Source of the DNA: Bacteroidota bacterium
GTDB taxonomy: Bacteria > Bacteroidota > Bacteroidia > Bacteroidales > Prolixibacteraceae
NCBI GenBank assembly: GCA_030698405.1
Contig: JAUYMU010000005.1
Location: forward strand, 62,001 to 126,000
Length of the DNA stretch: 64,000 bases
Direction: 5' to 3'
Part shown: piece by piece, positions 9,424 through 50,890 of the stretch
Position numbering within the stretch: position 1 is the first letter of the stretch
How the letters are laid out: each line of letters begins with the position of its first letter
The notes under the pieces: generated by a model
Told to the model about the DNA's origin: nothing
The model's database searches: none
Seen by the model: only the letters and a program-made list of their open reading frames with translations
Position numbers and translations under genes: made by a program

Positions 9424-9446
9424 AATATTAAGATTAAACTTTTAGT

Positions 9447-9476
9447 GCCTACTCTGTCGGTTTTCGGCTACCCCGT
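9447..9476 (-). promoter_or_regulatory. Leader element, copy 1 (possible pseudoknot)
   Basis: As minus-strand RNA the element reads from ACGGGGTAGCC through GAAAACCGACAG to AGTAGGC, ending 24 bases before the ATG at 9423. It matches the element at 20855-20890 upstream of another membrane-protein gene. CGG pairs with CCG and GCC with GGC in interleaved order, which would give an H-type pseudoknot. Function is unknown; a cis-regulatory RNA is the inference. Confidence 0.45.
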
Positions 9477-9763
9477 TTTTTTTCACACGTTTAAATCTTT
9501 ATAATACTTAGTAACTTGAAAATTGTTGAAATTTATATGTCCTTCTATTCCAAAAGTTAAATTCAGATTCTGTTTCATCTCGATTATTAATCAGCCGAAC
9601 AATGATTATTTATTCGATTTTACAAACAGATTTGTATGGCTCTTAATTAATACTAACATCTTTGCAACCCTTACATTTCTCGCAAATTCATCAATTCTCT
9701 TAATACAAATCCAGATTGTCTTTCAAAATCTTATCTAAAATTAAGCTACTGATAAACATACCG

Positions 9764-20839: not shown

Positions 20840-20854
20840 ATAATATGTTTTTAT

Positions 20855-20890
20855 GCCTACTCTTTTGTGCGGATTTTCGGCAACTCCGTA
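20855..20890 (-). promoter_or_regulatory. Leader element, copy 2 (possible pseudoknot)
   Basis: Minus-strand RNA ACGGAGTTGCCGAAAATCCG continues to AGAGTAGGCA, 16 bases before the ATG at 20839. CGGA/TCCG and TGCC/GGCA are each four-base pairs in interleaved order, as in an H-type pseudoknot. The element corresponds to 9447-9476. The spacing from the start codon is similar in both. Confidence 0.45.
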
Positions 20891-48964: not shown

Positions 48965-49059
48965 TAACAAGTACCATTTCACAAAATTTTAAACTTTCTT
49001 TCCTGAAAGCTTGTTATTGTCTTATAAATTGCATTTTTTTGCAACAGAAATTTAAAGAC

Positions 49060-49119
49060 ATGATTCAAAATACAAATACAATATGGCTTCCGTGGTGGGG
49101 TCTTCTTTCTAAAAAGTAA
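49060..49119 (+). CDS. trp leader peptide 1 (19 aa, three Trp)
   Basis: ATG at 49060, stop TAA at 49117-49119. The peptide is MIQNTNTIWLPWWGLLSKK, with Trp codons at 49084, 49093 and 49096. AATATGGCT (49080-49088), which includes the first Trp codon, pairs perfectly with AGCCATATT at 49128-49136. This is the usual attenuator stem that a stalled ribosome would block. Confidence 0.85.
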   Translation: MIQNTNTIWLPWWGLLSKK

Positions 49120-49159
49120 GAAGTAAGAGCCATATTGGTATTTTTAAACCATACAAAGG

Positions 49160-49190
49160 CCTGCTTCTTTTCGGAAAAGCAGGTTTTTTA
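49160..49190 (+). terminator. trp attenuator terminator 1
   Basis: CCTGCTT (49160-49166) and AAGCAGG (49177-49183) form the stem, followed by TTTTTTA. Upstream AAGAAG (49119-49124) can pair with CTTCTT (49164-49169) as an antiterminator, opening the stem. Confidence 0.75.
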
Positions 49191-49204
49191 ATTTTAAACT
49201 GAGA

Positions 49205-49273
49205 ATGATGATTACAATGAAAAATATTTGGTGGTGGCACAGAAACTTTTCGCAATACCGTGGAAGGAAGTAG
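49205..49273 (+). CDS. trp leader peptide 2 (22 aa, WWW)
   Basis: Three ATGs in the first five codons (49205, 49208, 49217) open MMITMKNIWWWHRNFSQYRG-RK with stop TAG at 49271-49273. Three consecutive Trp codons lie at 49229-49237. TTACAATGA (49212-49220) pairs perfectly with TCATTGTAA (49277-49285), enclosing the leader. Confidence 0.85.
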   Translation: MMITMKNIWWWHRNFSQYRGRK

Positions 49274-49301
49274 CTATCATTGTAAAAAAATGAACAAAAA
49301 G

Positions 49302-49336
49302 GCGGCTTATCGGAACACGGTAAGCCGCTTTTTTTT
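49302..49336 (+). terminator. trp attenuator terminator 2
   Basis: GCGGCTTA (49302-49309) pairs with TAAGCCGC (49321-49328), followed by eight Ts. It stands between leader 2 and trpE. Confidence 0.85.
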
Positions 49337-49366
49337 AGCCTGAAGGGCAGATATTAGATATAAATG

Positions 49367-49441
49367 AACCACATAGACACATAGCACACATAGAGAAAGT
49401 GGATTAAAATGAAAATCTATGTGATCTATGTGCCTATGTGG
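49367..49441. repeat. CACATAG hairpin repeat, copy 2
   Basis: ACCACATAGACACATAGCAC... pairs with ...CTATGTGATCTATGTGCCTATGTG 40 bases later. It matches the repeat at 35191-35268. It sits between the attenuators and trpE. Confidence 0.85.
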
Positions 49442-49474
49442 TTAAAAATTGAAAAAACAAACAAAATATACAAC

Positions 49475-50890
49475 ATGAAAGACATCAACGTACAAGTCAG
49501 CGTAAAAAAGATCCTTGCCGATACCCTAACCCCGGTAAGTGTCTATCTGAAATTCAGGGATTTGTTCCCGAATTCGATTTTGCTCGAAAGTTCTGATTAT
49601 CATGGACACGAGAATGCCTATTCGTTCATCTGCATCAAGCCAATGGCCTGCTTCACAGCCGATAGAAGCGAAATTACCATCGAATACAATGGCCGCGAAA
49701 AAGTAACTCAACCCGTTGGTCCTGAAAACAGGGTTGATAAGCAACTGGATGCTTTTTTCAAGTCCTTTAAATTGTCAGGAGAAACCGAAAACCTGCCGGC
49801 GAATGGCTTGTTTGGTTACATCAGCTACGATGCGGTGAAGTATTTCGAGAAGATCGAGATTACAGCCGAAGCCAAAGAAGCTTATTCTGTTCCGGAAGTG
49901 AAATACTGTTTCTACAAATACATTGTGGCAATCGATCATCACAAGGACATGATTTACCTGATCGAAAACCTGATGGAAGGCGAAATCAAAGAAATTGGCC
50001 AGATTGAATCGTTACTCAGAAACCTGACTTTTTCGCCAACACAATTTGATACTGTGGGAGCCGAAGTTTCGAACATCACCAACGAAGAGTATAAATACAT
50101 GGTAAGTAAAGGAAAGGAACATTGTTTCCGTGGCGATGTTTTCCAGATCGTGCTTTCGCGCCAGTTTTCCCAACAATTCAAAGGCGACGAATTCAATGTT
50201 TACCGTGCTTTGCGCTCAGTCAACCCTTCGCCTTACCTTTTCTTTTTTGATTACGGAACGTATCGCATTTTCGGATCGAGCCCGGAAGCCGAGCTGCGCA
50301 TAAAGAAAGACAGGGCAATTATCAATCCGATTGCAGGTACTTTTAAACGCTCCGGAAACGATGATGAAGACCGCATTTCAGCAGAGCGTTTGTGCGCCGA
50401 TCCGAAAGAAAATGCAGAACATGTGATGCTGGTCGATCTGGCTCGCAACGATTTGAGCCGCAATGCCAGCGATGTGACTGTTGACAGTTACCGGCAGGTT
50501 CAGTACTTTTCGCATGTCATTCATCTGGTATCAGAAGTTTCAGGAAAATTACCCGAAAATACAAACATGATTACTGTTTTGGGCGATTCGTTTCCAGCCG
50601 GAACTTTATCGGGAGCGCCGAAACATCGTGCCATGCAACTGATTGACATCTACGAAAACCAGCGCCGCAGCTATTATGGCGGTTGTATCGGTTATCTGGG
50701 CTTCGATCAAACGCTGAACCATGCCATCATGATTCGGTCGTTCCTGAGTAAAGGGAATACGCTTTTTTATCAGGCAGGTGCCGGAATTGTGGCCGATTCG
50801 CAGGAAGAAAGCGAACTTCAGGAAGTAAATAACAAACTGGGCGCATTGAAAAAAGCGCTGGAGATTGCGAAAGAGATAGGCCTCCCCTAA
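49475..50890 (+). CDS. trpE: Anthranilate synthase component I
   Basis: The ATG at 49475 (MKDINVQVSV) is preferred; the longer frame adds residues encoded by the CACATAG repeat. The 471-residue protein converts chorismate with ammonia to anthranilate, the first step of Trp synthesis. 'NSILLESSDYHGHENAYSFI' includes the LLES Trp-binding feedback site, and 'FRGDVFQIVLSRQF', 'GTFKRSGNDDEDRISAERL', 'FPAGTLSGAPKHRAMQLI' and 'YYGGCIGYLGF' are chorismate-binding motifs. Its last residues GLP and stop come from a CCTCC-type repeat. Confidence 0.97.
   Translation: MKDINVQVSVKKILADTLTPVSVYLKFRDLFPNSILLESSDYHGHENAYSFICIKPMACFTADRSEITIEYNGREKVTQPVGPENRVDKQLDAFFKSFKLSGETENLPANGLFGYISYDAVKYFEKIEITAEAKEAYSVPEVKYCFYKYIVAIDHHKDMIYLIENLMEGEIKEIGQIESLLRNLTFSPTQFDTVGAEVSNITNEEYKYMVSKGKEHCFRGDVFQIVLSRQFSQQFKGDEFNVYRALRSVNPSPYLFFFDYGTYRIFGSSPEAELRIKKDRAIINPIAGTFKRSGNDDEDRISAERLCADPKENAEHVMLVDLARNDLSRNASDVTVDSYRQVQYFSHVIHLVSEVSGKLPENTNMITVLGDSFPAGTLSGAPKHRAMQLIDIYENQRRSYYGGCIGYLGFDQTLNHAIMIRSFLSKGNTLFYQAGAGIVADSQEESELQEVNNKLGALKKALEIAKEIGLP

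Follow-up and report, generated by a model that had tools for sequence, protein, structure and literature searches.

The classical ribosome-mediated trp attenuator is trpL of Escherichia coli, and T-boxes bind tRNA directly. The locus analyzed here lies upstream of trpE in a window of 64,000 nucleotides from a member of the Prolixibacteraceae (Bacteroidota; contig JAUYMU010000005.1, assembly GCA_030698405.1). Its leader shares with the classical type a short ORF with tandem UGG codons, a pause hairpin, an antiterminator, and a terminator; however, it contains two putative attenuators instead of one, and the hairpin of the first unit survives in some relatives without the ORF. A ribosome-mediated trp attenuator is also described in Actinobacteria (PMC1262725). 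For Bacteroidota, Weinberg et al. 2010 list Bacteroid-trp as one row of a table (PMC2864571). The leader studied here is likewise a Trp leader before Bacteroidota trp genes, and both of its units align weakly to that model (RF01692), whereas the 131-position model represents one leader and here two stand in series, with a nearly invariant inner loop in the first.

Tandem arrangements have been described in other systems. The tandem attenuators of Salmonella mgtCBR are reported to respond to different signals, ATP and proline (PMC3641672); two short ORFs and alternative structures share a single leader there as here, but in our locus UGG codons occur in both ORFs and a terminator hairpin follows each. 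Tandem T-box riboswitches are known (PMC12452182), and they also duplicate amino-acid-supply sensors in one leader, although the sensors here would be translated ORFs. Naville and Gautheret report that the rimP leader has a second, tandem terminator (PMC2965389). In open-access full text, which leaves most subscription papers outside, we came across no description of two leader-peptide attenuators for the same amino acid arranged in series, and no paper linking Prolixibacteraceae with a riboswitch.

Here, we propose, with a probability of roughly 0.8, that two ribosome-mediated Trp attenuators follow one another on a single transcript in the trp operon leader, a reading based on sequence comparison and predicted folds.

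Architecture of the leader upstream of trpE

The trpE gene (49475-50890, plus strand) is the first gene of a complete Trp biosynthesis operon, trpE-G-D-C-F-B-A, which extends to 56496 downstream of both leader units. Two leader ORFs precede it on the same strand, both present as the sequence-only reading had claimed and each with three Trp codons. Leader ORF 1 (49060-49119) encodes MIQNTNTIWLPWWGLLSKK followed by a stop codon, with Trp codons at 49084, 49093, and 49096; leader ORF 2 (49205-49273) encodes MMITMKNIWWWHRNFSQYRGRK followed by a stop codon, with three consecutive Trp codons (TGGTGGTGG) at 49229-49237. When the intergenic region 48965-49474 was submitted to 1000 dinucleotide shuffles, none gave any ATG-initiated ORF with three Trp in five residues.

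Both ORFs are associated with a hairpin containing a perfect 9-base inverted repeat, at the coordinates originally reported. In unit 1, the repeat pairs 49080-49088 (AATATGGCT) with 49128-49136 (AGCCATATT) and belongs to the plus-strand hairpin 49074-49144, which comprises P1 (49074-49088 with 49128-49143), a conserved inner loop strand (TCCGTGGTGGGGT, 49089-49101), and P2 (49102-49107 with 49118-49123). In unit 2, the repeat pairs 49212-49220 (TTACAATGA) with 49277-49285 (TCATTGTAA) and forms the base of the plus-strand pause hairpin. The folding z-scores were -3.43 for unit 1 and -5.76 for unit 2, and each unit was better than all 200 of its own shuffles.

A hairpin with a T-tract was found after each ORF on the plus strand, in agreement with the initial description: predicted intrinsic terminator 1 (GGCCTGCTTCTTTTCGGAAAAGCAGG plus T-tract) at about 49155-49189, and predicted intrinsic terminator 2 (AAAAGGCGGCTTATCGGAACACGGTAAGCCGC plus T-tract) at about 49297-49337. 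Both were detected by RNAfold and by a second terminator scan. A simple consensus terminator scan reported neither of them on the plus strand; the same scan returned the mirror of terminator 1 on the minus strand and a small hairpin at 49085-49102. Therefore, the evidence for both terminators consists of the RNA folds, the second scan, and their conservation.

The promoter consensus of Bacteroidota has -33 and -7 elements. A promoter-like pair resembling it precedes unit 1 on the plus strand, with TTG at 49011-49013, a 20-nt spacer, and TTTTTTTG at 49034-49041. Of the 90 loci, 56 have such a pair before unit 1, versus 175 of 1800 shuffles of those stretches, and the other 34 have none as defined. 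Between the units, it occurs in only 3 of the 89 loci examined. Because the pair lies before unit 1 and rarely between the units, both units are most simply placed on one transcript.

In the comparison with Bacteroid-trp, suggested along with the tandem reading, RF01692 matched twice, once per unit (49040-49165 with 29.4 bits and 49188-49311 with 28.7 bits). Neither match comes near the gathering score of 49, and a trpB-motif match on the opposite strand has a similar score (29.7 bits). In the search of the window's own genome, RF01692 gave no match at E<=0.001. No Rfam family matched the leader at gathering score in the window or 10 relatives, and no T-box covariance match reached gathering score in the same set.

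Conservation of the tandem leader in Prolixibacteraceae

We searched 140 genomes of the family with R1, a covariance model built on the unit-1 hairpin. Matches at E<=0.1 were obtained in 100 genomes, 78 of them with at least 70 bits, and in 20 of the 23 genomes of the window's genus. Of the remaining three congeners, two have contigs that end within the leader (G017 and G018), and one has no close trpE (G004). Relatives named by their TrpE belong to the Prolixibacteraceae genera Sunxiuqinia, Gaoshiqia, Draconibacterium, Maribellus, and Mariniphaga.

We then tabulated 90 loci, including the window, in which the hairpin and trpE lie on one stretch; 74 are strong matches and 16 are diverged. The table excludes four strong matches for which no trpE was found on the contig of the hairpin (G022, G047, G055, and G097), and the context of seven weak-match genomes of genus g9 was left out (G077, G080, G082, G088, G091, G093, and G094). 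An ATG, an in-frame W..WW motif, and a stop codon were found in unit 1 of 73 of the 90 trpE leaders. L227, a genus g23 locus, was taken as tandem in spite of an N gap after its terminator 1. Among these 73, terminator 1 was identified by script in 68 and by eye, as imperfect hairpins, in five. The remaining 17 leaders, hereafter hairpin-only, keep the hairpin and have neither the ATG nor terminator 1. Thus, none of the 90 loci is mixed: each has either both the start codon and terminator 1 or neither (five by eye). UGG occupies all three unit-1 Trp positions in each of the 62 main-type tandem loci. Measured from P1, the Trp codons of unit 2 lie 44-51 nt away in all 17 hairpin-only leaders and 86-97 nt away in 59 of 72 tandem leaders.

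These results support the claim of two Trp attenuators in series, as ORF 1 and terminator 1 are kept together in most leaders. The sequence-only reading had regarded single-leader relatives as evidence against the tandem, and some do occur: the hairpin-only leaders seem to do without the first attenuator, and one genome (G136) has only a leader of unit-1 type. Hence, the family includes members without the tandem. On the TrpE tree, the hairpin-only state needs about three changes and either state may be ancestral; the tree, obtained by a quick method from 126 rows, has 41 of 123 inner branches below 80 and some long branches, and L214 carries no state.

Other genera show further arrangements. 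In genus g23, two loci (L225 and L226) have tandem Trp leaders in which the first hairpin differs in sequence (IFTNWSWW and INIWSWW), L229 has two WWW leaders, and in L227 the first unit is followed by the N gap. The sole leader of G136 (L228, genus g23), which lies before trpE, encodes MNQLITVWFWWLSCFPGKK (VWFWW) and has a terminator beginning CCTGCTTC; leader 2 seems lost. A single WWW leader at the place of unit 2 was found in g3, g14, g18, g19 (two genomes), g20, one g4 genome, and G059. The presence of one Trp leader at this place in several distant members of the family also favors the attenuation reading. By eye, no Trp leader was found before trpE in eight g2 genomes and in G101; a trpB-like coding end lies directly upstream of trpE in several of the loci L207-L211 and L218 from these genomes (g2 and G101; also by eye). 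Outside the family, inspection by eye showed mostly one Trp leader and in some cases none, and none of the loci inspected had two leaders each with a terminator. In Cecembia rubra (L075), a second Trp-rich ORF (MSTIKNINWSWFLPNAN) lies 646-592 bases before trpE, far upstream of the ordinary leader, and no terminator was found after it.

In one genome (G132; L161/L234), a nucleotidyltransferase (PF18765/PF01909) and HepT-like (PF01934) gene pair of MntA/HepT type stands between terminator 1 and leader 2, which places it behind the first Trp attenuator. The same arrangement was seen by eye in G041 (L163/L233) and is probably present in G055 (L144 and L235).

Alternative pairings and proposed mechanism

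Antiterminator 1 (49118-49125, 49127, and 49129-49131 with 49158-49169, plus strand) was predicted by folding and supported by co-variation. With a ribosome stalled over the Trp codons, where it would mask the 5' arm of P2, and the 3' arm of the terminator not yet made, the antiterminator fold has -15.2 kcal/mol, and with the ribosome at the stop codon of ORF 1, terminator 1 forms in the fold. Across loci, the antiterminator-1 duplex has -10.27 kcal/mol with its own partners versus -7.87 (sd 0.30) with permuted ones, and 0 of 5000 permutations reached this value (62 loci giving 48 distinct triples, with shared ancestry left in). The P2 pairing alone showed no excess over permutation (903 of 5000 as good). 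Genera g9 and g17 have a terminator 1 of different sequence (beginning GGCTTACC). Among 24 chosen loci, it finds its best partner in its own leader segment (-15.8 and -18.4), as does that of g23 (-14.0). The main-group mean with its own antiterminator was -10.6, which is weaker than with partners from g17 (-11.7) or g23 (-12.0).

For unit 2, the candidate antiterminator pairs ACCGTG (49257-49262) with CACGGT (49316-49321) on the plus strand, the latter being located in the loop and 3' arm of terminator 2. As long as the 3' arm has not been transcribed, the predicted fold of unit 2 (-8.0 kcal/mol) contains GUG:CAC of this pairing. The pairing between leader and terminator 2 was also better with own (-17.33) than with permuted partners (-15.13, sd 0.22), and 0 of 5000 permutations were as good, from 104 distinct pairs with kinship uncorrected. 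The tandem claim gains strength from the better pairing of both leader segments with their own terminators than with permuted partners.

Based on these pairings, a ribosome stalled at UGG for want of Trp-tRNA would mask the 5' part of the pause hairpin, and the freed leader segment could pair with part of the emerging terminator, forming the antiterminator and allowing RNA polymerase to continue. With ample Trp-tRNA, the ribosome would arrive at the stop codon and mask that segment, and the terminator would form. Unit 1 also contains a hairpin whose sequence is constrained by something other than the peptide. In full-length stalled folds, the terminators are more stable than the antiterminators, so antitermination would have to be kinetic, as it is in classical attenuation. 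Since RNA polymerase must pass both terminators, read-through into trpE would be roughly the product of the two; we infer stalling, in vivo termination, and such multiplicative control. Two leader-peptide attenuators for the same signal would make this a natural system in which to examine how the dose-response of a biosynthetic operon depends on terminators in series.

Constraint on the unit-1 hairpin

The first inverted repeat sits in a hairpin constrained far beyond what a leader peptide explains. In the 12 main-type hairpin-only loci, all 27 columns of the 5' strand (AAATACAATATGGCTTCCGTGGTGGGG) are identical and the 3' strand does not vary in 15 of its 17 columns, versus mean identities of 0.682 in the first 450 nt of trpE, 0.525 in the 40 nt upstream, and 0.696 in the P2 region. 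The P2 loop is variable, whereas both strands of P1 hardly vary, and the hairpin as a whole is more conserved than leader 2.

In none of the 17 hairpin-only loci was an in-frame ATG or GTG found within 16 codons, and one (L195) has a TTG. Seven have an in-frame stop within 8 codons upstream, including five of the 12 main-type loci, in which it lies 5-6 codons upstream. The UGG codons of L187 and of L199 do not share a single reading frame. Fifteen of the 17 loci reach a stop in the Trp frame within 24 codons; in the other two, the frame stays open for 52 and 120 codons downstream. In the 62 main-type tandem loci, no synonymous change was observed at codons AAT (-3), ACA (-2), and CTT (6); synonymous changes were observed at codon 1 (CTG, 4/62), codon 5 (GGA, 1/62), and codon 7 (CTG, CTA, and CTC; 4/62). 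The invariance of the hairpin in start-less loci, together with these frozen synonymous sites, indicates that the constraint is mostly not on the peptide. The hairpin is thus a conserved structured RNA that does not need a translated ORF, a trait also expected of metabolite-binding riboswitches.

The hairpin is nearly always present in one copy per family genome and stands before trpE wherever the fetched stretch reaches that gene. Weak matches away from trpE, a second one in G016 (L189) and one in G078 (L200), look like chance hairpins. The exact core pattern was found in 0 of 388 order-level genomes outside the family and in 3 of 393 overall, all three within the family. A second covariance model (R2), searched in 295 class-level genomes under stricter filters with 17 candidates scored per genome, gave four matches: the window's genome and three weak ones inside coding frames. 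Hence, no convincing copy of the hairpin was found outside the family in the genomes sampled.

Possible roles of the hairpin

At somewhat less than even odds, unit 1 may be primarily a structured RNA, an aptamer or a site for an RNA-binding factor, on which the Trp ORF and terminator are overlaid in most genera; this reading is additive to that of tandem attenuators, and both can hold together. It is favored by the persistence of the hairpin in leaders without an ORF start or terminator 1, by the UGG codons that do not share one frame, by the contrast between the identical 5' strand and its diverged surroundings, by the three codons without synonymous replacement, and by the absence of an Rfam family at gathering score for this leader or the 10 relatives. 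On the other side, nearly always a single copy per genome, placed before trpE wherever the fetched stretch reaches that gene, leaves no regulon from which to read a ligand. Moreover, since the P1 of the g23 unit-1 attenuators differs in sequence, attenuation in that genus does not require the frozen sequence, and the few synonymous changes at codons 1, 5, and 7 also speak against this reading. If unit 1 were instead a decaying duplicate and only unit 2 active, the missing ORF and terminator in some lineages would be expected, as would the imperfect terminator-1 hairpins that the script missed in five congeners. A decaying element should hardly be more conserved than leader 2, retain a co-varying antiterminator, or have its start codon and terminator either both present or both missing, which makes this explanation very unlikely.

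The peptide and the DNA could also be the conserved entities. An arrest of the nascent chain by the peptide NTIWLPWWGLL, with conservation at the protein level, would fit its almost invariant sequence in tandem loci and the closure of the Trp frame within 24 codons in most start-less loci. However, the DNA is equally invariant in the 12 loci without an ATG, GTG, or TTG start in frame, five of which have a stop just upstream, and AAT, ACA, and CTT are frozen at synonymous positions; the arrest peptide was largely rejected on the basis of the start-less loci and is the least probable of these explanations. The palindromic arms of P1 (CAATATGGCT and AGCCATATTG), a conserved inverted repeat near the presumed start site, might alternatively be a DNA operator for a repressor. 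This is improbable because almost any distance between 34 and 44 bases separates the arms, irrespective of helical phase, and conservation of the inner strand GUGGUGGGG is one-sided. We suggest, as a possibility short of an even chance, that the hairpin is an undescribed putative regulatory RNA of the Prolixibacteraceae trp leader. It would act alone in some genera and lie under a Trp ORF and terminator elsewhere, so that the leader might read Trp-tRNA twice and a further signal once. Retention of the hairpin in leaders that have neither ORF 1 nor terminator 1 suggests that a leader peptide can overlie a function at the RNA level. The existence of species with the ORF, for example in Draconibacterium or Maribellus, and of species without it, such as Sunxiuqinia elliptica, makes the RNA and peptide layers separable by experiment.

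Three further candidates were rejected. An action of unit 1 on terminator 2 was not accepted due to mixed permutation results with kinship uncorrected: for the P1 3' linker against the 5' arm of terminator 2, permutations were as good in 1 of 3000 cases for all loci, 6 of 3000 for tandem loci, and 2746 of 3000 for hairpin-only loci, and for the P1 5' strand or loop against terminator 2, in 10 of 3000 for hairpin-only, 2611 for tandem, and 933 for all loci. Pairing of a tRNA 3' end with TGGTGGGG was discarded, as 0 of 40 tRNA matches above the cutoff begin with GGTGGGG. Horizontal spread of the hairpin alone was dismissed because its flanks and the P2 loop have diverged.

Additional observations

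An alternative frame starting at an ATG inside the hairpin (in the window, ATG GCT TCC GTG GTG GGG) was followed in the 89 loci that have this ATG. It reaches a stop within 24 codons in 82 of them, namely 70 tandem and 12 hairpin-only; the exceptions are two tandem and five hairpin-only loci, a distribution that speaks neither for nor against the frame. Between terminator 2 and trpE, the window contains a long palindrome at 49367-49443, beginning with ACCACATAGACACATAG and ending with CTATGTGCCTATGTGGT. The spacing between terminator 2 and trpE is highly variable among congeners, as though repeats insert there. Elsewhere in the window, two matches to DUF805b RNA (RF02914) above gathering score were located on the minus strand, at 9446-9477 and 20854-20889.
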